7,505 nucleotides of DNA from Candidatus Rokuibacteriota bacterium (GCA_016188625.1 JACPHL010000196.1:1-7505), one strand, 5' to 3'; positions 351 to 7,153 are shown, counted from the stretch's first letter. Translations and numbers: made by a program. Notes: a model not told the origin generated them from the letters alone.

Positions 351-394
351 CCGGATTTTCAGGGCGGCTCGGGTACTCGGGTAAATGTTACATC
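351..394 (+). promoter_or_regulatory. Upstream activating element, copy 1
   Basis: First of three related elements. It has a left T-tract (TTTTC, 356-360) and a right box GGTAAATGTTACATC (380-394), which matches the box of copies 2 and 3 at 13 of 15 positions. The right box ends 100 bp before the -24 GG of the sigma-54-type promoter at 493-508, a usual distance for an enhancer-binding protein site. A tandem duplication of CTCGGGTA (368-383) sits between the two halves and lengthens this copy. The role as an activator site is inferred from recurrence and position. Confidence 0.6.
368..383 (+). repeat. 8-bp tandem duplication CTCGGGTA x2
   Basis: CTCGGGTA occurs at 368-375 and again at 376-383 without a break, inside upstream element copy 1. 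Removing one unit brings the distance from the left T-tract to the TTACATC end of the box to 21 bp, against 20 bp in copies 2 and 3. It is therefore probably a slippage duplication in an ancestral element of the same form. Confidence 0.8.
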
Positions 395-450
395 CTCGCT
401 CCGCGCACAGGCTCGACCCGCGGATGCCGCCTCCGGCGCGAAAGCCCTGA

Positions 451-457
451 ATTTTCC
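451..457 (+). promoter_or_regulatory. Proximal T-tract element of promoter 1
   Basis: ATTTTCC is an AT-rich island in GC-rich DNA. The last T (455) is exactly 39 bp before the first G of the -24 element (494), the same spacing as at the other two promoters. Read on the other strand it is GGAAAAT, the core of the upstream box, so it may be an inverted half-site for the same activator or a bend site. Confidence 0.5.
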
Positions 458-492
458 AGCCTCTCGCACCCCTTCGATCCTCCACCCGACCC

Positions 493-508
493 AGGCATGG
501 AGGTTGCA
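493..508 (+). promoter_or_regulatory. Sigma-54 (RpoN) -24/-12 promoter 1
   Basis: GGCATGGAGGTTGCA carries GG (494-495), ten bases and GC (506-507). It fits the sigma-54 consensus TGGCACG-N4-TTGCW, with T for C in the -24 box and A for the leading T. Transcription would start near 519, leaving a leader of about 110 nt before the ATG at 628. It drives the three overlapping genes 628-2080. Upstream element copy 1 and the T-tract supply the expected activator sites. Confidence 0.75.
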
Positions 509-627
509 GTTCTCGGGAAGCTAGCCAGCACAGGCCCTCGGCCATCGTTCAGACAGGGCCTGCGGCGGACTCATCGTGGCGGATGGGTACTTCGGCCGGA
601 GCGGTAACGGCAAGGAGGACGCGCGAC

Positions 628-1098
628 ATGAGAACCAAGGACAGGCTCGACCGCCGGACCGTGCAGGAGATCGAACGGTCCCTCAGGGACCGGCACGCCA
701 GGCTCAGGGAGTCCATGCGGAGCGCCATCGCCCAGCGAAACGGGAACGGGGCCGGCCGATCCACCGAGCTCATGGCCCGGGCGACCGAGACCCTGCACGA
801 AGAGATCCAGGTCGCCATCGTGGACCTCCACAGTCGCCAGGCCGCCCAGATCGAGGCGGCCCTCGAGCGGCTCGGCCAGCAGGAGTACGGGTTCTGCCGC
901 GACTGCGCGGGGTTCATCGGGGTGGCGCGACTCCGGGCCCTGCCGTTCGCCCAGCGATGCCAGCCCTGCCAGGCGCGGGCCGAGTCGAGGGCGCAGGAGG
1001 TGACGCCGGATGCGGCGCTCATCGCCACGGACGACGCCGAATGGGGACCGTCGGCTACCGGCGGGCCGAAGCGGATGACCCAGAAAGGAGGCCGATGA
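628..1098 (+). CDS. DksA/TraR-family C4 zinc-finger protein
   Basis: A 156-residue protein. The N-terminal 85 residues are charged and helical, consistent with the coiled-coil hairpin of the family. The C-terminus has a C4 zinc finger, C90-x2-C93-x17-C111-x2-C114, in the family context YGFCRDC...IGVARLRALPFAQRCQPC. Family members such as DksA enter the RNA polymerase secondary channel and change promoter response, often with ppGpp. The region between the two helices (NGNGAGRSTE) lacks the acidic DxxDxA tip of canonical DksA, so this is better called DksA/TraR-like than DksA. The start at 628 is chosen because a perfect AAGGAGG (612-618) precedes it by 9 nt; an in-frame ATG at 583 has no such site. 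It is the first gene after promoter 1, and its stop overlaps the next start (ATGA). Confidence 0.85.
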   Translation: MRTKDRLDRRTVQEIERSLRDRHARLRESMRSAIAQRNGNGAGRSTELMARATETLHEEIQVAIVDLHSRQAAQIEAALERLGQQEYGFCRDCAGFIGVARLRALPFAQRCQPCQARAESRAQEVTPDAALIATDDAEWGPSATGGPKRMTQKGGR

Positions 1099-1439
1099 TG
1101 CGTAGGCTCGGGCGGCTCGCCCTTCTGCTCCTCCTGATGCTATCGGTGGCCTCCCCCGCGCTGGCCGGGGTCGCCACCATCGAGACCACGGCCCCGCTTT
1201 CGGACTACTCCGAGCAGAGCATCACGATGGCCTTCAAGACGGCGGTCGAGACCGCCGTCCGCGGGGCGGTGGCTATGGGGCTCCCCCGGGTCCAGCTTCG
1301 CCAGGCGGTCGTGCTGGAGGACATGGTGGCGATCCAGATCCGGGCGACCGACATGGAACCCGACGCCGAGACCCCGGAGCCCGACCCGGACGAGACGCCC
1401 GGCGACGGGGCCGGGGAGCCCGGGAGGCTCGATCTATGA
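1095..1439 (+). CDS. Small secreted protein of unknown function, acidic tail
   Basis: A 114-residue protein that I do not recognise. MMRRLGRLALLLLLMLSVASPALA is a clear Sec signal peptide, with likely cleavage after Ala24. The mature part is about 90 residues: a predicted helical stretch (residues 41-62), a beta-like segment around RQAVVLEDMVAIQIRA, and a low-complexity Asp/Glu/Pro/Gly tail from about residue 87. The start overlaps the stop of the zinc-finger gene (ATGA), and AAAGGAGG sits just upstream. The stop overlaps the start of the MlaC-like gene in the same way, so all three should be translated together. Its place before an MlaC-like gene suggests a periplasmic job, but no function can be assigned. 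Confidence 0.8.
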   Translation: MMRRLGRLALLLLLMLSVASPALAGVATIETTAPLSDYSEQSITMAFKTAVETAVRGAVAMGLPRVQLRQAVVLEDMVAIQIRATDMEPDAETPEPDPDETPGDGAGEPGRLDL

Positions 1440-2080
1440 GGGGGCACGGGATCAAGCTCACCGTGGCGATCGCCGTCGTGGCGGGGCTCCTGGCGGGCGG
1501 GGGCTCCGTCGAGGCGGGCGCCCCGACGGACCAGCTCAAGGGGGCCGCCGACCGGGTGGTGAAGCTGCTCCGGGATCCCGAGCTCGGCAAGCCCGGAAAA
1601 GTCGCGGAGCGCCGGAAGCAGCTCCGCGCGGTCGCGGACCAGATCTTCGACTGGCAGGAGACCGCCAAGCGGGCCCTCGGCCGACACTGGCGGGAGCGGA
1701 CCCCCGCCGAGCGCGAGGAGTTCACGAGGCTCTTCGCCGACCTCCTCGAGCGCGCCTACGTCGGCAAGATCGAGCTGTACAGCGGCGAGCGGATCCGGTA
1801 CGAGGGCGAGAGCGTCGAAGGCGACCGGGCCATGGTGAGGACCATCCTGGTGACCAGGTCGAACACGGAGGTCCCCATCGACTACCGGATGCTCAAGGCG
1901 GGCGACCGGTGGCGGGTCTACGACGTGACGGTCGAGGGGATCAGCCTGGTCTCCAACTACCGCACACAGTTCAACCGGATCATCCAGCAGGCCGGGTACG
2001 GCGGCCTCGTGGAGAAGCTCAAGACCAGGCAGGACGAGCTGGTCGCCGAGGGATCGGCGCAGGGGAAGAAGAGGCGGTGA
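1436..2080 (+). CDS. MlaC/Ttg2D-type periplasmic phospholipid-binding protein
   Basis: A 214-residue protein with a signal peptide (hydrophobic 7-23, likely cleavage after Ala27, VEA-G) and an MlaC/Tol_Tol_Ttg2 domain over about residues 33-200. Diagnostic stretches are RTPAEREEFTRLFADLLERAY (88-108, helical), VPIDYRMLKAGDRWRVYDVTVEGISLV and SNYRTQFNRII (173-183). In Proteobacteria MlaC carries phospholipids between the outer-membrane MlaA complex and the inner-membrane MlaFEDB transporter. None of those partners is in the window, so this is an orphan copy placed after a DksA-like regulator and a small secreted protein. GGGAGG lies 8 nt before the ATG, and the start overlaps the preceding stop. 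The basic, Lys/Arg-rich C-terminus (KKRR) is unremarkable. The family call is firm; the exact ligand is not known. Confidence 0.9.
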   Translation: MRGHGIKLTVAIAVVAGLLAGGGSVEAGAPTDQLKGAADRVVKLLRDPELGKPGKVAERRKQLRAVADQIFDWQETAKRALGRHWRERTPAEREEFTRLFADLLERAYVGKIELYSGERIRYEGESVEGDRAMVRTILVTRSNTEVPIDYRMLKAGDRWRVYDVTVEGISLVSNYRTQFNRIIQQAGYGGLVEKLKTRQDELVAEGSAQGKKRR

Positions 2081-2116
2081 GGTCGATCACGGCCTTCCCC
2101 GGCGATCCGGGACCCC

Positions 2117-2152
2117 CCAATTTTTTCTGATGGCCCTGGAAAATCTTACATC
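2117..2152 (+). promoter_or_regulatory. Upstream activating element, copy 2
   Basis: CCAATTTTTT (2117-2126), then the box GGAAAATCTTACATC (2138-2152), identical over 15 bases to copy 3. The distance from the last T of the tract to TTACATC is 20 bp, as in copy 3. The element ends 99 bp before the -24 GG of promoter 2. The TTTTTTC and GGAAAA parts form an imperfect inverted repeat, as expected for a dimeric activator site. Confidence 0.65.
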
Positions 2153-2201
2153 CCGCGGCCTCGGACGGGGCGTTGAGGGCTCCCGCGCCGATCCAAATCC
2201 T

Positions 2202-2214
2202 CCAAAAGTTTTGG
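2202..2214 (+). promoter_or_regulatory. Proximal palindrome/T-tract element of promoter 2
   Basis: CCAAAAGTTTTGG is a perfect palindrome around a central G (2208). Its last T (2212) is exactly 39 bp before the -24 GG (2251), the same as at promoters 1 and 3. It is probably a protein-binding site: a second activator site or an architectural protein site. Confidence 0.55.
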
Positions 2215-2249
2215 GACCTTGGAAACCCGGGGCCGAGCCCCGAAGGCTC

Positions 2250-2265
2250 GGGCACGCCGGTTGCA
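2250..2265 (+). promoter_or_regulatory. Sigma-54 (RpoN) -24/-12 promoter 2
   Basis: GGCACGCCGGTTGCA matches the consensus GGCACG-N4-TTGCA at every fixed position, with GG at 2251-2252 and GC at 2263-2264. Only the leading T is replaced, by G. The start of transcription should be near 2276, giving a leader of about 85 nt before the ATG at 2361. It drives the DUF1344-like and coiled-coil genes. Confidence 0.85.
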
Positions 2266-2360
2266 GGGATGGGAAAGGGAGGCGGTGTCTCTGGAGGTGC
2301 CGGGGTCATGGTGGCCCGCCGGGGACGGTCGCAACAATACCCGGGGAGGAGGTGCATGGC

Positions 2361-2642
2361 ATGAGGCGAGTCGCCGCAGTCCTGACCGCGCTCCTGGTGG
2401 CGCTCTCGCTCGGCTGGGGCCTGGGGGTGCTGGCCCAGCAGGCGGGCGAGGTGGAGGGCAAGATCCAGAGCGTGGATCCGTCCGGGAGGGTGGTGACCCT
2501 CGAGGACGGGACCCAGCTCACGATCCCCGACAACGTCCAGGTCCAGCGCGACGCCCTCAAGGAGGGGGCGATGGTGAAGGCCAGTTTCGAGGAGAAGGAC
2601 GGGCAGAAGATCGTGACCAACATCGAGGTCAAGAAGGAGTAG
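2361..2642 (+). CDS. DUF1344-like secreted protein (complete paralogue)
   Basis: A 93-residue protein. The signal peptide MRRVAAVLTALLVALSLGWG... ends near the LAQQAG stretch (about residue 25-27). The mature part is one small beta-rich domain: EVEGKIQSVDPSGRVVTLEDGTQLTIPDNVQV, then LKEGAMVKASFEEKDGQKIVTNIEVKKE. This order (EGxIxSVDP, TLxDGTxxxIP, LKxGxxVKxxFEEKDG) is typical of DUF1344-like proteins, whose function is unknown; the fold is probably a small OB- or SH3-like barrel. The left-edge gene (1-161) is a close paralogue. The ATG at 2361 is chosen because GGAGGAGG (2345-2352) ends 8 nt upstream and the signal peptide starts there; in-frame codons further upstream lie before the promoter. 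It is the first gene of unit 2. Confidence 0.8.
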   Translation: MRRVAAVLTALLVALSLGWGLGVLAQQAGEVEGKIQSVDPSGRVVTLEDGTQLTIPDNVQVQRDALKEGAMVKASFEEKDGQKIVTNIEVKKE

Positions 2643-2674
2643 TTCCCTAGCGGGCCACCCAACCGTCGCGTCCA

Positions 2675-2701
2675 GAGGCTCGGGGTGACTCCCCGGGCCT
2701 C
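2675..2701 (+). terminator. Intergenic hairpin between the DUF1344-like and coiled-coil genes
   Basis: GAGGCTCGGGG (2675-2685) pairs with CCCCGGGCCTC (2691-2701), with one U-G wobble and a 5-nt loop. It begins 33 bp after the DUF1344-like stop, and no T-run follows. It may be an attenuator or an mRNA 3'-end stabiliser favouring the first gene over the second. The other DUF1344-like gene is also followed by a hairpin. Confidence 0.45.
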
Positions 2702-2734
2702 CGCGACGCGGCCGAGCGGAAGGGAGGGAGCGGG

Positions 2735-3085
2735 ATGCTGAGACGTGTACTGCCTATCGGGCTCGGGATCGCCTTTCTGGCGGTGTTGGCGTTCCTCGCC
2801 TTTGCCGAGGTCAACGACGACCACTACCGCCCGGTCCCGGAGACGTGGCTGGTGACCGAGGAGAGTCTTGACAGCAAGGTGGCCGAGATCAGGGCCGACG
2901 TGCAGAGCCTCCGCGCGGAGCAGCAGCGCCTCCAGGCGGACTTCCAGGGCCTGCGCGCGGAGAACAAGAGCCTCCGTCAGCAGGTGCAGACCCTCCAGGA
3001 GAACCTGCAGGCGAGGATGGAGAAGGAGGAGACCCGCGAGGGCAGGGCCCCGGAGGGTGGGGGGGCCGCGGGAGGGCGACTCTAG
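2735..3085 (+). CDS. Membrane-anchored coiled-coil protein
   Basis: A 116-residue protein. Residues 5-24 form a hydrophobic segment (a signal anchor or uncleaved signal). Residues 43-98 are a long charged helix with heptad-like Leu/Val spacing (VAEIRADVQSLRAEQQRL, FQGLRAENKSLRQQVQTLQENL), that is, a coiled coil. The last 15 residues are Gly/Ala-rich and probably disordered. I do not recognise a family; single-pass coiled-coil proteins of this shape include FtsB/FtsL-like and many spacer proteins, but nothing here marks cell-division function. GGGAGGGAG precedes the ATG. It follows the DUF1344-like gene by 92 bp, with a hairpin between, so it probably shares promoter 2. It converges on the minus-strand protease gene. 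Confidence 0.75.
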   Translation: MLRRVLPIGLGIAFLAVLAFLAFAEVNDDHYRPVPETWLVTEESLDSKVAEIRADVQSLRAEQQRLQADFQGLRAENKSLRQQVQTLQENLQARMEKEETREGRAPEGGGAAGGRL

Positions 3086-3115
3086 CCGATGGCGGCTCAG
3101 CGCTGACGGCCGGAG

Positions 3116-3931
3116 CTATTCCCCCGTCCTCGGGGGGGAGCGGCGATCCCCCAGGAGGTTGCCGTAGCCGGCCTGGTCCAGGAACCGCCGGATGGCGGCC
3201 GGTGGCGTGACGTAGGTCTCGCCGGGGACCGGCACGTTGATGGAGCGCGGCGAGTCCCCGCCCAGCGACACGCTCGCGGTCCCGTAGCCCTCCACGAGCC
3301 CGATCAGCCTTCCGGTGCGCGCCTCGTAGACGCCGCCCCCGCTCGAGCCGTAGGTCACCGAGGCGTCCACCATGATGCGCGAGGCCCCGTTTTCCCCCGC
3401 TGCCTCCGGCTCGACCTGGCTCACGATGCCGCCGGACAGCTTCATGTGGCGGCCCCAGGGAAAGGCGACGACCCAGACCGCCTCGCCGAGCGTCGGCGGA
3501 GGGCCCAGCGGGGCGGCGGAACATCGACCGGTCCGGATGCGCAGGAGGGCAAGGTCCAGCTCCTCGGCCTCTCGGCGGGCGAGGACGATGGCGCGCGCCT
3601 TCGTGGCCGCGCCCCGGTGGCGGTCGAACAGGACGTAGGCCTCGGCCTGTTCCGGTGGGCGGATCAGCGCATGCGCGCTCGTGAGGACGAAGCAGTCTGT
3701 GCCGTCCGCGGCCGGGCGCTGGGCGATCACGACGCCGGAGGCGCTCCGAAGGCGTCGTCCATCGTGGTGCTCGATGACGACCTGGACCGCCGAGGGCAGG
3801 ATCGCCTGGAGGACCTGCTCGCGGGTCGGCGCGGGAAGACGGCCGGTCGCGCAACCGGAGGCAAGCGCGAGCAGCAGGGAGCACATGATCGCGCCTCCCC
3901 CGAGGCGTCGCGGCCAAGACATGGTGGGCAT
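3116..3931 (-). CDS. Trypsin-like (S1/HtrA-type) serine protease, lipoprotein
   Basis: With the start at 3931 the protein has 271 residues. It begins with a lipoprotein signal ending in LALASGC (lipobox; lipidated Cys27). The catalytic triad is visible: His87 in LTSAHAL, Asp126 in ELDLALLRI and Ser197 in GSSGGGVYEARTGRLIGLVEG. This is the Trypsin_2/S1C fold as in HtrA/DegP, but there is no PDZ domain, so it is about a protease-domain length. It probably acts on periplasmic or envelope proteins while tethered to a membrane. ATG 3931 has a GGAG about 10 nt upstream on its strand; ATG 3922 is three codons later and equally fits the signal. Longer in-frame extensions upstream would overlap the divergent gene and delay the signal peptide, so I reject them. 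Confidence 0.85.
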   Translation of the reverse strand: MPTMSWPRRLGGGAIMCSLLLALASGCATGRLPAPTREQVLQAILPSAVQVVIEHHDGRRLRSASGVVIAQRPAADGTDCFVLTSAHALIRPPEQAEAYVLFDRHRGAATKARAIVLARREAEELDLALLRIRTGRCSAAPLGPPPTLGEAVWVVAFPWGRHMKLSGGIVSQVEPEAAGENGASRIMVDASVTYGSSGGGVYEARTGRLIGLVEGYGTASVSLGGDSPRSINVPVPGETYVTPPAAIRRFLDQAGYGNLLGDRRSPPRTGE

Positions 3932-3971
3932 GATACCCCAGCTCCCCCCGGGGATCAAGGGGTAGCTTTCC

Positions 3972-3980
3972 GGAGGTGAT
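3972..3980 (+). promoter_or_regulatory. Near-perfect Shine-Dalgarno of the BON-like gene
   Basis: GGAGGTGAT is fully complementary to the 16S anti-SD core (AUCACCUCC) and sits just before the ATG at 3984, fixing that start. It lies in the 52-bp gap between the two divergent genes. I see no convincing -35/-10 pair in the gap. Confidence 0.75.
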
Positions 3981-3983
3981 CCC

Positions 3984-4490
3984 ATGAGATCTATCGGTGT
4001 CGCATTCGGGATCCTCGCGGTCTTCCTCGCGCCCATGGCGGTCCCTGCGCCTGGCTGGGCCCAGGCGCCCGGCGCCCCGGGCGCGCCCCTCCCACCGCCA
4101 GTGGCTGGCAGCCCCGTGGAACCCGACGGGGGCGGCGCGGGACTGGCGCTCGTCCTCCTGACGCTCGGGTTCATCGTCGTCATCGGGGCTGCGGGGAAGC
4201 TGGTCGATCTCAGGCGGAGACGGGAGGAGGACGCGGTCTACATCGAGTCGCAGATCTCCGACGTGCTGCTTCGAGATCCAAAGCTCTTCCGCCTGCCGAT
4301 CAAGTCTACCGTGCGGCTCCCGACCTGGAAGGGGTCGCCGGCCGCCATCACCGTCTCGGGACAGGTGCCGACGCCTGAGCTCCGGCAGGTCATCCTTCGC
4401 ACCGTCGAGGAGGAGGCGTCGCGGATTCGATCGGACTTCCGGATCGAGGACCGGATCGTCGTCGCATCCCGGGGGACCCGCGCCGCCTGA
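3984..4490 (+). CDS. Membrane-anchored BON-like domain protein
   Basis: A 168-residue protein. Residues 1-27 look like a signal peptide (cleavage near WAQA). Residues 28-50 are an Ala/Gly/Pro-rich linker, 53-71 a transmembrane helix (LALVLLTLGFIVVIGAA), followed by a positive stop-transfer KLVDLRRRR. Residues 86-162 resemble a BON domain: helix (IESQISDVLLRDPKLF), beta (AITVSGQVPT), helix (ELRQVILRTVEEEASRI), beta (FRIEDRIVV). BON domains bind phospholipid membranes, as in OsmY or DolP. With a cleaved signal and the positive cluster after the helix, the BON-like part would be cytoplasmic; with an uncleaved signal the topology would be reversed, so sidedness is uncertain. It is divergent from the lipoprotein protease and not visibly under a sigma-54 promoter. 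Confidence 0.7.
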   Translation: MRSIGVAFGILAVFLAPMAVPAPGWAQAPGAPGAPLPPPVAGSPVEPDGGGAGLALVLLTLGFIVVIGAAGKLVDLRRRREEDAVYIESQISDVLLRDPKLFRLPIKSTVRLPTWKGSPAAITVSGQVPTPELRQVILRTVEEEASRIRSDFRIEDRIVVASRGTRAA

Positions 4491-4606
4491 AGCGAGCGAT
4501 GGGTGGACTCCTCTGGTCCCTCCCCGTGGCGGGCCTCCTCACGCCGGACGGCCGGGCCGCGTAAGGGAATTGCGCCGCGGCGCGCCCCCTTTCGTCCCGC
4601 AGACGG

Positions 4607-4641
4607 CCAATTTTTCCGGTGGCTCGGGAAAATCTTACATC
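4607..4641 (+). promoter_or_regulatory. Upstream activating element, copy 3
   Basis: CCAATTTTT (4607-4615) and the box GGAAAATCTTACATC (4627-4641), identical over 15 bases to copy 2. ATTTTTCC and GGGAAAAT form an imperfect inverted repeat. It ends 87 bp before the -24 GG of promoter 3, 12-13 bp (about one helical turn) closer than in copies 1 and 2. Confidence 0.65.
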
Positions 4642-4649
4642 GAGCCACC
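4618..4649 (+). repeat. Perfect 9-bp inverted repeat around the activator box
   Basis: GGTGGCTCG (4618-4626) and CGAGCCACC (4641-4649) are perfect inverted copies flanking the 14-nt GGAAAATCTTACAT core of upstream element copy 3. The arms are not conserved in copies 1 and 2, so this dyad is particular to promoter 3. It could be a further operator or a cruciform-prone site. Confidence 0.6.
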
Positions 4650-4684
4650 GCAGTGCGCCTCCCCTCCTCCACCACAACTACCCG

Positions 4685-4691
4685 TTTTTCC
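4685..4691 (+). promoter_or_regulatory. Proximal T-tract element of promoter 3
   Basis: TTTTTCC. The last T (4689) is exactly 39 bp before the -24 GG (4728), matching the other two promoters. On the opposite strand it reads GGAAAAA, close to the core of the upstream box. Confidence 0.5.
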
Positions 4692-4726
4692 TGCTCTTTA
4701 CAGCCCGCATGCCGCCTCGCCGGGGT

Positions 4727-4742
4727 GGGCACGTGGGTTGCA
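4727..4742 (+). promoter_or_regulatory. Sigma-54 (RpoN) -24/-12 promoter 3
   Basis: GGCACGTGGGTTGCA is a full match to GGCACG-N4-TTGCA, with GG at 4728-4729 and GC at 4740-4741. Transcription should start near 4753, which leaves about 33 nt before the ATG at 4786 and makes the upstream GTG at 4756 an unlikely start. It drives the receiver protein and probably the four genes after it. Confidence 0.85.
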
Positions 4743-4785: not shown

Positions 4786-5229
4786 ATGTCCCAGCGCATC
4801 CTGATCGTGGAACCCGAGCCGCACGCCCGGGAGGGGTTGCGGGCGATCCTCGCGGGGGTGGGGCACGAGGTCGTCGTGGCCGCCGACATCCCCGGCGGGT
4901 TCGAGCACCTGACCGCGCGACCGTTCGATGTCCTGCTCCTGGACGCGGATCTCTCCCGTCGGGAGGTCGTGCTCAGCGTGCTCGACCTCCTACGGCTCGC
5001 CCGGATGCGGGACGGGCGGGCGAGCGGGGTCCTGCTGACCAGCAGCGCCGAGGATCTCCCGAACGACCTGGCTTCGGAGGGGGTCGTGGCCGTCCTGGAA
5101 CGGCCCGTCGAGCTCGCCCGGTTGCGGCAGGCGCTGGAGACCGCCGGGGCCCGATCCGCGAGGGCAGGGAAGGCCCGGCCGTCGGGATCGAGATCGGGGG
5201 AGAGGGAGGAGAGGAGGACGACGGGATGA
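4786..5229 (+). CDS. Stand-alone CheY-like receiver protein, degenerate active site
   Basis: A 147-residue protein with a single receiver domain over about residues 3-120 and no output domain. The beta-1 motif ILIVEPEP replaces the usual IVDDD pair with Glu9-Pro10. The phospho-acceptor Asp53 is kept (FDVLLLDADL). The Thr/Ser switch is kept (VLLTSS, Thr85). The conserved Lys before Pro in beta-5 is Arg106 (VLERPVE). Loss of the acidic pair and the Lys suggests weak, altered or absent phosphorylation. The last 27 residues are a basic, Ser/Arg/Gly-rich tail, partly encoded by the next gene's ribosome binding site. The start at 4786 begins the domain directly (MSQRILIVE) and follows GAGGG by about 12 nt; GTG 4756 is almost on the transcription start. 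Its stop overlaps the next start (ATGA). No histidine kinase is present. Confidence 0.8.
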   Translation: MSQRILIVEPEPHAREGLRAILAGVGHEVVVAADIPGGFEHLTARPFDVLLLDADLSRREVVLSVLDLLRLARMRDGRASGVLLTSSAEDLPNDLASEGVVAVLERPVELARLRQALETAGARSARAGKARPSGSRSGEREERRTTG

Positions 5230-5825
5230 AGGGGATCAGGCAGCTCTTCGCGCTGATCGTGGTCTTCGCGGCCTTTGGCTGCAGCGGCGGCGGATCGGCG
5301 GGCGCGCCGACGACGCCGACGACGTCCGCAAGCGCCGGAGAGGGCACGGCGACCGTCCTGCTCACGGACAGCCCGTTCAGCGACGCCCAGGCCGTGCTCG
5401 TGACCTTCACCGAGGTGAGCGCTCACCGGAGCGGCGGGGGGTGGGAGACGATCCCGTTCTCGCCGCCGAGCGCCAGTCGCACCTGCGATCTGAAGCAGCT
5501 CCAGGGCGCCCAGGACATCCTGGGGACCGGGCCGCTCCCCCAGGGGCACTACACCCAGATCCGCCTGATGGTCTCCGAGGCGACCCTGTACTTCGACAAC
5601 CCCGCGGGCGGCCCCGCCTGCGCCCCGGCGATCGCCGCCCCGGCGGGCGCGAGCGCGCCGCTCGAGATCCCGTCCGGGGAGGTCAAGCTCAACCGGGAGT
5701 TCGACGTGACCTCGGGCGACGTGACGACCATCACCCTGGACTTCGAAGGGGAGCGCTCCATCCACCAGACCGGGAGCGTGACATTCATGATGAAGCCGGT
5801 GATCGCGGTGGTGAGCGTTCAGTGA
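5226..5825 (+). CDS. DUF4382-like lipoprotein
   Basis: A 199-residue protein with a lipoprotein signal (FAAFGC; Cys19 lipidated, followed by Ser-Gly-Gly-Gly) and a Thr/Ala-rich linker to about residue 39. The rest fits DUF4382: TVLLTDSPF (43-51), VTFTEVSAH (59-67), W73, CDLKQLQGA, LPQGHYTQIRL (104-114), EIPSGEVKLNREFDV (147-161), TLDFEGERSIHQTG (170-183) and FMMKPVI (187-193). This is a beta-rich, probably Ig-like fold on the cell surface or periplasmic face; the function is unknown. An internal Cys pair (Cys87, Cys132) could form a disulphide. GAGGAGG lies 8 nt before the ATG, which overlaps the receiver stop, so the two are translationally coupled. Confidence 0.82.
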   Translation: MKGIRQLFALIVVFAAFGCSGGGSAGAPTTPTTSASAGEGTATVLLTDSPFSDAQAVLVTFTEVSAHRSGGGWETIPFSPPSASRTCDLKQLQGAQDILGTGPLPQGHYTQIRLMVSEATLYFDNPAGGPACAPAIAAPAGASAPLEIPSGEVKLNREFDVTSGDVTTITLDFEGERSIHQTGSVTFMMKPVIAVVSVQ

Positions 5826-5877: not shown

Positions 5878-6498
5878 ATGAGCACAACGTGGCGGCGTCT
5901 TGAAGTCGTGGCGGTCGTGATCTTGGCGGCCCTGGTGTGGGCGGCGCCGGTGGGCGCGCAGGAGCAGGAGAAGCCGTCGCCCGCTCAGTCCGGGCAGCCG
6001 ACGGCGTCCTCGCCGGCGCTGGGGATCGGCGGTCGGGCCGGCTGGCTGCGCTCCGACGACGCCGACGACACCACCCTCCACGGCGGGGCCCAGCTCCGGC
6101 TGCGTCTCCTGCCGATCCTCGGCCTGGAGGGCTCGATCGACTACCGGAAGGAGGAGTTCGACAACGGCCGGATCGAGATCAAGAGCTACCCCGTGCTCGT
6201 CTCGGCCCTGCTCTACCCGATCCCCACCGCGCCCATCCAGCCGTACCTGATCGGCGGGGTGGGCTGGTACTTCAACCGGATCGAGATCGAGGGGGGGCGC
6301 AGCGACGAGACGCAGCGGTTCGGGGTCCACATCGGCCCCGGGATCGACATCCCCATCACGCCCCAGGTGGTGCTGAACGGCGACATCCGCTGGTACTTCC
6401 TCGATGTGGACTCGAAGAGGGTGCGCGAGGCGCGCCGCCGCGACCTCGACACCGACGGCTGGCCCGCGACCGTCGGCGTGACGTTCTACTTCCGCTAG
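5878..6498 (+). CDS. Small outer-membrane beta-barrel protein (OmpW/OprF-barrel type)
   Basis: A 206-residue protein with a signal peptide (cleavage after Ala27, VGA-Q) and a Gln/Ser/Pro linker to about residue 46. Alternating hydrophobic/polar strands follow at roughly 48-57, 67-77, 81-90, 98-112, 120-137, 144-160, 163-177 and 195-205. Eight strands match the small 8-stranded barrels (outer-membrane beta-barrel domain family). Recognisable stretches are QPYLIGGVGWYFNRIEI and the aromatic C-terminal strand VGVTFYFR, with Phe next to last. Such proteins serve as structural or small-solute outer-membrane proteins; the ligand is unknown. GGAGGG is 7 nt upstream of the ATG. It lies 52 bp after the lipoprotein gene, with no terminator seen, so it is probably in the same unit. 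Confidence 0.8.
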   Translation: MSTTWRRLEVVAVVILAALVWAAPVGAQEQEKPSPAQSGQPTASSPALGIGGRAGWLRSDDADDTTLHGGAQLRLRLLPILGLEGSIDYRKEEFDNGRIEIKSYPVLVSALLYPIPTAPIQPYLIGGVGWYFNRIEIEGGRSDETQRFGVHIGPGIDIPITPQVVLNGDIRWYFLDVDSKRVREARRRDLDTDGWPATVGVTFYFR

Positions 6499-6589: not shown

Positions 6590-7153
6590 ATGAGGAGATG
6601 GTTGACGGTCATGCTGGCAGTGGCTCTGGCCATGGGGCTCGGCGCCGGACCGGCGCTCGGGCAGGAATCCACGGCCAAGGCCGACAAGGAACTGACCACG
6701 GAAGGCCGGAAGATCGACAAGGCTGCGGCCGGGGCCGATGCGGGCCAGGTCACGTCCCGGATCGTGGAGGAGTGGCAGGGGACCAAGTTCAAATTCGACG
6801 CCACGAGCGACCCGCGCCCGCTCACCGCGCAGGACGTGCAGGATCTGCGCGCCAAGGGGCTCGGATACGGGGAGATCTCGATCCTGCTCGGGCTGACGGC
6901 CAACCAGCCGAACCCGGACACCGCGAAGCCGCTGAACGAGGTGCTGGCCCTGCGACAGGGCGGCAAGGGCTGGGGGGAAGTCGCTACGGAGCTGGGGTAC
7001 AAGAACCTCGGCTCGGTGATGAAGAGCGTGAAGGCGACCGAAAAGGGGATCTCCCAGGCCGCCAAGGCCGGCAAGCCCGAGATGGGCAAGCCCGAGAAGG
7101 CGAACGGTGATCGGAAGCCCGAGGGTGCCCGCCCAGACGGCACCGGCCCCTGA
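6590..7153 (+). CDS. Secreted protein with a two-fold internal repeat, unknown function
   Basis: A 187-residue protein. The signal peptide is followed by QES after a likely ALG cleavage at residue 24. A helical, charged region (28-62) is followed by two similar segments: DVQDLRAKGLGYGEISILLGL (82-102) and NEVLALRQGGKGWGEVATELGY (116-137). Both share a Leu-x-x-(Lys/Gly)-Gly-x-G-(Tyr/Trp)-G-Glu-(Ile/Val) core and look like helix-turn-helix hairpins. The last 30 residues are a Lys/Gly/Pro-rich tail (AGKPEMGKPEK), probably disordered and perhaps able to bind acidic surfaces. I do not recognise a named family. AGGAGG (6576-6581) lies 8 nt before the ATG at 6590, and the signal peptide begins there, so an in-frame ATG at 6506 is rejected. 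It is 91 bp after the barrel gene. Confidence 0.75.
   Translation: MRRWLTVMLAVALAMGLGAGPALGQESTAKADKELTTEGRKIDKAAAGADAGQVTSRIVEEWQGTKFKFDATSDPRPLTAQDVQDLRAKGLGYGEISILLGLTANQPNPDTAKPLNEVLALRQGGKGWGEVATELGYKNLGSVMKSVKATEKGISQAAKAGKPEMGKPEKANGDRKPEGARPDGTGP

Follow-up and report, generated by a model that had tools for sequence, protein, structure and literature searches.

An apparent sigma-54 regulon of envelope proteins and its likely two-component regulator in a Candidatus Rokuibacteriota genome

Introduction

Do three neighbouring gene units of a bacterium respond to one common sigma-54 switch and, if so, which protein operates this switch? The question is raised by a stretch of 7,505 nucleotides from Candidatus Rokuibacteriota bacterium (GCA_016188625.1 JACPHL010000196.1:1-7505), which in its whole length is called the window here. 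The original prediction proposed that three long gaps each carry a -24/-12 promoter preceded by a common box and a T-tract, that the box is the site of an enhancer-binding protein and that the units form a local envelope regulon. Here, these proposals were followed up by pattern searches in the genome itself and by comparison of upstream regions and gene neighbourhoods in relatives.

Results

Genes of the window

The genes considered here are listed below.

628..1098, plus strand: DksA/TraR-type zinc-finger protein gene (PF01258, E 9e-8), with orthologues in relatives
1098..1439, plus strand: hypA, gene for a small exported protein of no family, with homologues of 33-48% identity in genus g7
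1436..2080, plus strand: MlaC-type periplasmic protein gene (PF05494, E 2e-50)
2361..2642, plus strand: DUF1344-like exported protein gene (PF07076), with homologues behind box and sigma-54 promoter in relatives
2735..3085, plus strand: membrane-anchored coiled-coil protein gene, probably in the DUF1344 unit
4786..5229, plus strand: receiver-only response regulator gene (PF00072)
5226..5825, plus strand: DUF4382 lipoprotein gene (PF14321, E 1e-26)
5878..6498, plus strand: outer-membrane beta-barrel protein gene (PF13505)
6590..7153, plus strand: exported protein gene (the 6590 gene), with a box-bearing homologue in the relative G025

The families proposed earlier, i.e., DksA/TraR zinc finger, MlaC, DUF1344, receiver, DUF4382 and outer-membrane beta-barrel, were all recovered by Pfam. 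Just upstream of unit 1, positions 1-161 hold the 3' end of a second DUF1344-like gene, which is 46% identical over that stretch to the product of 2361-2642. Moreover, a trypsin-like (HtrA-type) protease gene lies on the minus strand between units 2 and 3 (3116-3922), and a 50% identical homologue of it adjoins a box-bearing DUF1344 gene in the relative G022 (L292).

Box-promoter pairs in the window and in its genome

In each of the three gaps a sigma-54 type promoter was found by pattern search in the window and the genome, accompanied by a predicted enhancer box and a T-tract.

355..360, plus strand: T-tract ATTTTC upstream of box 1, possible degenerate second site (sequence; upstream-region comparison)
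380..394, plus strand: predicted enhancer box copy 1, GGTAAATGTTACATC; palindrome core 380-392, match to TGTAANNNTTACA 9/10
494..508, plus strand: sigma-54 type -24/-12 promoter of unit 1, GGCATGGAGGTTGCA (genome pattern search)
2119..2127, plus strand: T-tract AATTTTTTC at about 22 bp from box 2, which may be a degenerate second operator (upstream-region comparison)
2138..2152, plus strand: predicted enhancer box copy 2, GGAAAATCTTACATC (pattern search; upstream-region comparison)
2251..2265, plus strand: sigma-54 type promoter of unit 2, GGCACGCCGGTTGCA (genome pattern search)
4609..4617, plus strand: T-tract AATTTTTCC upstream of box 3 (upstream-region comparison)
4627..4641, plus strand: predicted enhancer box copy 3, GGAAAATCTTACATC (pattern search; upstream-region comparison)
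4728..4742, plus strand: sigma-54 type promoter of unit 3, GGCACGTGGGTTGCA (genome pattern search)

The promoters are -24/-12 elements of the GG-N10-GC type with a sequence close to GGCACG-N4-TTGCW, and a conserved putative enhancer site is located in the range of about 80-150 bp upstream. The boxes lie 99 (unit 1), 98 (unit 2) and 86 bases (unit 3) ahead of the promoters, in good agreement with the 87-100 bp proposed originally, and the proposed identities hold as well: copies 2 and 3 are identical in 15/15 bases, and copy 1 agrees with both in 13/15. The T-tract is present at all three copies as claimed and also at a fourth copy on contig C205 (ATTTTTTC); it is less regular than the box, and the tract of copy 1 is located about 6 bp farther from its box.

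The genome is available as a 2.6 Mb bin of 344 contigs with 84% completeness, to which all genome-wide counts refer. A search for the box as GGWAAATNTTACATC with up to two mismatches returned five matches (reversed control 0), i.e., three exact ones in the window, one with a single mismatch on C205 and a poor one on C8. The latter (C8:5156) was rejected as a chance match, its only promoter-like sequence being about 60 bp off and thus wrongly spaced. The strict promoter pattern GGCAYGNNNNTTGCW occurs ten times (reversed control 0). The genome scan for box plus promoter suggested by the original prediction, performed with the loose pair TTACAT-N80-110-GGNNNGNNNNTTGC, yielded exactly four pairs, the three of the window and one at C205:4231, and none in the reversed control. 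Moreover, TGTAANNNTTACA scores are 7-9 of 10 for the four promoters with a box and only 5 for the six remaining strict promoters of sigma-54 type in the genome, before which the box is absent. As a background, about 2% of arbitrary 85-bp stretches in the own-genome contigs examined reach a score of 7 and 0.4% reach 8, figures which include the true box sites. The occurrence of box and promoter in all three gaps is far beyond chance.

The promoters with a box (n=4) end in TTGCA and have a G/C-rich spacer, and the others (n=6) end in TTGCT and have an A/T-richer spacer. Possibly, the ten strict sigma-54 promoters fall into two classes.

The two-component operon on C205 and the sigma-54 machinery

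The fourth box-promoter pair is found on C205 in the order response regulator, kinase, lipoprotein, box and promoter, secreted-protein gene. The regulator (452 aa, C205:503-1861) shows PF00072, PF00158 and PF02954 above cut-off, corresponding to the receiver, the AAA+ sigma-54 activator domain and the Fis-type HTH of the NtrC family, and it carries the GAFTGA loop (EKGAFTGA). The kinase (608 aa) is composed of single-Cache, HAMP, PAS, HisKA and ATPase domains, and the third gene encodes a lipoprotein-like protein of 151 aa. In several regulator orthologues of genus g7 (L155, L081, L138, L132, L084, L134) as well as in L150, L151 and L154, the sigma-54 contact loop reads GSFTGA instead of GAFTGA.

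The machinery on which a sigma-54 switch depends is encoded in the genome: rpoN is present on C106 (PF04552, E 7e-62), and clear domains of sigma-54 activators number about 15. The absence of rpoN or activators that would have refuted the original prediction is therefore not observed. Due to this number of activators, assigning the box to the C205 regulator takes more than adjacency. C205 and the window are linked by binning, by the shared box and by synteny in relatives only.

The putative operator in relatives is a 13-bp palindrome

In the relatives, palindromes were found before sigma-54 promoters, i.e., the box is conserved beyond this genome. A comparison of 49 upstream regions indicates that the box is a degenerate, genome-specific form of a 13-bp palindrome, TGTAA-N3-TTACA, which in most cases is located 78-124 bp ahead of the -24 element. 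The 15-mer described originally is thus real in this genome, but the conserved unit is the palindrome, of which the window boxes are imperfect versions with a weaker left arm (GGTAA and GGAAA vs TGTAA). A secondary copy of the palindrome peaks 20-22 bp to either side of the main one, corresponding to two helical turns as in paired enhancer sites. The 49 regions were picked partly by a box score of >=7, so that the main palindrome is no independent evidence in this set, whereas the secondary peak is. The T-tract of the window may occupy the place of such a second, degenerate copy.

Of 18 sigma-54 sites in the loci of the named relatives, 5 have a perfect 10/10 palindrome ahead of them, and random positions within these loci would be expected to give 0.1. 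When 95 genomes of the class were searched for GTAANNNTTAY together with a promoter, 20 matches in 13 genomes were obtained (control 0). A close regulator orthologue, defined by E <=1e-170, is present in 42 of the 95. All 13 palindrome-promoter genomes fall within these 42 and none within the other 53 (Fisher p 7e-6), a value that is indicative only, because the threshold was set after inspection and the relatives are not independent. The regulator orthologues retain the recognition helix SLKTLHNKL, and for a related group of regulators with TLYNKL no palindrome-promoter matches were obtained in the 95 class genomes. In some genomes (Methylomirabilis, genus g31), orthologue and operon are present and the box is weak or absent. 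The pattern TTACATC matched few sites among 99 relatives because the bases past TTACA are not conserved, and the palindrome was used instead; the strict TGTAANNNTTACA combined with a looser promoter gained no further genomes.

Conservation of the box is weak for unit 1, the weakest of the units. A sigma-54-like promoter precedes the DksA gene in G002 and G003, with a box of at best 8/10 (G003, 100 bp upstream); in the other relatives nothing of this kind was found before DksA, and G002 and G003 have no regulator match at the E <=1e-170 threshold.

Gene order and putative targets in relatives

Within the searched set, the window's own family is represented by this genome alone. The named relatives of the kinase are found in Candidatus Rokuibacteriota and Methylomirabilota MAGs, followed by Tectomicrobia, Nitrospirae and Acidobacteria. 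The recurrent order in relatives is regulator, kinase, lipoprotein, box, sigma-54 promoter and receiver gene, and many Rokubacteria/Methylomirabilota genomes have palindrome plus sigma-54 promoter following this operon. The gene that follows is often a homologue of the receiver protein of the window, as for the receiver protein of G037, which is 60% identical to the product of 4786-5229. In L079 (G025:C273), the lipoprotein gene is followed by two tandem receiver-only genes, both of which have a box and a sigma-54 promoter of their own.

Other window genes recur in the same context. DUF1344-like genes stand behind box and sigma-54 promoter in L286, L287 and L292, and the homologue of the 6590 gene in G025 (L285, 61%) has its own 10/10 box and sigma-54 promoter. 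Homologues of hypA (33-48%) lie directly upstream of the regulator gene in relatives of genus g7, and in several genera a DksA-like gene immediately precedes a related regulator. The MlaC homologue follows the receiver gene in two genomes and lies near the regulator in others, and BON-like homologues adjoin regulator copies in g11 and g8. Homologues of window genes thus adjoin the regulator or the same switch elsewhere and the window therefore gathers genes that travel with the system. In L275, L278 and L279 (G014, G054, G008), regulator copies are accompanied by BON-like, further regulator-like and MlaC genes, an arrangement that suggests duplication of the system.

Moreover, genes for trehalose-phosphatase, DUF3185-like, YMGG glycine-zipper, BON, bactofilin, DUF748, PsiE and BrkB proteins are found behind the palindrome-promoter in relatives. 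Further putative targets are OmpA-like and HtrA-like, and a fragment may be FecR-like; these three names are readings of the sequence only, since Pfam gave no match for the truncated target fragments.

Comparison with known systems

AtoSC and ZraSR of E. coli are among the best-scoring named models for the C205 pair, and domain order and the logic of sigma-54 activation are common to these systems. ZraSR also serves an envelope-stress response. In the PEP-CTERM system PrsK/PrsR (TIGR02915), an NtrC-type regulator and its kinase control surface proteins via sigma-54 promoters, and the C205 system resembles it in combining an NtrC-type regulator and kinase with sigma-54 promoters; no PEP-CTERM motifs were noticed in an unsystematic reading of the targets. 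NCBIfam scores stay well below the cut-offs, both for the regulator (AtoC 451.8 vs 714; ZraR 420.5 vs 760; PrsR 414.8 vs 502.6) and for the kinase (AtoS 300.3 vs 646; ZraS 208 vs 479), placing the pair in the NtrC family but outside AtoSC, ZraSR and PrsR. The closest solved structure is NtrC1 of Aquifex aeolicus (PDB 4l4u, 1ny5), whose sequence similarity spans nearly the whole regulator (E 2e-111). The operator TGTAA-N3-TTACA, the targets and the lipoprotein partner of the C205 system were encountered in none of the papers searched.

As described in the main text of a study on Desulfovibrio vulgaris, sigma-54 regulons were reconstructed there from enhancer-binding protein, motif and -24/-12 promoter by comparative genomics (Kazakov et al., 2015; PMC4641369), i.e., by a parallel method and for the same kind of object in a different phylum; neither TGTAA nor TTACA occurs in that main text. 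The main text of a sigma-54 regulon survey from 2025 does not mention the phylum (PMC12316311). A search confined to the open literature gave nothing that matches the motif, a sigma-54 system in Rokubacteria/Methylomirabilis or such a stress regulon. The mechanism is of a known kind, and regulon and operator appear to be undescribed in the open literature.

Discussion

As the three units share one two-part switch and the likely regulator, itself accompanied by a fourth copy, is retained in relatives, the envelope-protein regulon is apparently real. The pairing of box and promoter, its specificity and conservation, the palindromic form and the linkage to the regulator can be read from the genome sequences themselves. 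The original proposal of a shared switch is supported by this; the regulon is not only local, as the likely regulator and the fourth promoter sit on another contig. The box as the putative site of an enhancer-binding protein gains support from the copy beside an NtrC-type operon and from its occurrence only together with a close orthologue of this regulator.

The following mechanism is proposed. The C205 sensor kinase would sense an envelope signal by its periplasmic single-Cache domain and phosphorylate the partner NtrC-family regulator, which would bind the palindrome TGTAA-N3-TTACA at a distance of roughly 110 bp ahead of the -24 element; many promoters would offer it a further copy, separated from the first by about two helical turns. 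The bound regulator would reach the sigma-54 polymerase via DNA looping and open the promoter by ATP hydrolysis. Enhancer binding and ATP-driven opening of sigma-54 promoters by the phosphorylated protein are expected from its family membership. Targets would be the DksA-hypA-MlaC, the DUF1344/coiled-coil and the receiver/DUF4382/barrel units and the secreted protein encoded next to the kinase operon, and the receiver-only protein among them may act back on the phosphorelay, damping it as a phosphate sink. In this scheme the phosphorelay, the signal, the role in stress and the receiver feedback are inferred. The C205 regulator is very likely the protein that binds the box, and it is likely that the three gaps are the sigma-54 promoters of one C205-system regulon working in this way as a whole.

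Alternatively, another of the roughly 15 sigma-54 activators might read the box, the C205-side copy merely putting the downstream gene into its regulon; adjacency to a regulator gene is no proof of binding, and the box follows the C205 operon and does not precede it. This is improbable, since the box stands directly behind this operon across many genomes, it matches only where a close orthologue of the regulator exists, the recognition helix is conserved along with it and homologues of the window genes cluster with the C205-type regulator. A factor outside the sigma-54 system, i.e., a repressor or an accessory protein, might also act on the same promoters, as many factors could fit a 13-bp palindrome that is so short and has TGTAA arms, and the box was first spotted here from sequence alone. 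The tight pairing with -24/-12 sites, mostly at the classic enhancer distance of 78-124 bp, and the absence of the box before the other six strict promoters make such a factor very improbable. Finally, the likeness of the gaps could result from local copying of one promoter region without selection for a shared switch, as suggested by the adjacency of the three units and the two identical boxes. Only box, T-tract and promoter are in common, though, the rest of the gaps being not visibly alike in the upstream listing, and the pair is seen again on C205 and, amid unrelated flanks, in other genera, so that copying is hardly credible.

For the regulon of the C205 system, the presence of trehalose-phosphatase, BON, bactofilin, glycine-zipper, DUF3185-like and DUF748 targets suggests an envelope or osmotic stress response, and a signal of this kind is somewhat favoured. 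The regulon might be real and its theme a different one, e.g., carbon/energy or surface-attachment control: the nearest named models, AtoC/AtoS and ZraR/ZraS, are all below cut-offs and several target genes have no known function. This is judged rather unlikely, as exported, outer-membrane, lipoprotein, BON, glycine-zipper or trehalose genes make up most of the targets and sigma-54 generally tends toward control of the bacterial exterior, a published general theme (PMC3162934).

Rokubacteria and Methylomirabilota are mostly known from metagenomes and little is known about their gene regulation. Here, sequence alone provides a candidate regulator, operator, promoters and a target list recurring across genera, by which the uncharacterised families DUF1344, DUF4382, hypA and the kinase-linked lipoprotein gain a common regulatory context. 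The 13-bp motif can be used for target prediction or for in vitro binding tests without culture. Tentatively, and with slightly less than even confidence, the system might represent a sigma-54 pathway dedicated to envelope stress in Rokubacteria/Methylomirabilota, equipped with a two-component system of its own, a lipoprotein partner, feedback by receiver-only proteins and the operator TGTAA-N3-TTACA. Its role would resemble that of Cpx or sigma-E in Proteobacteria, and its kinase-regulator pair would extend to Nitrospirae, Tectomicrobia and Acidobacteria.
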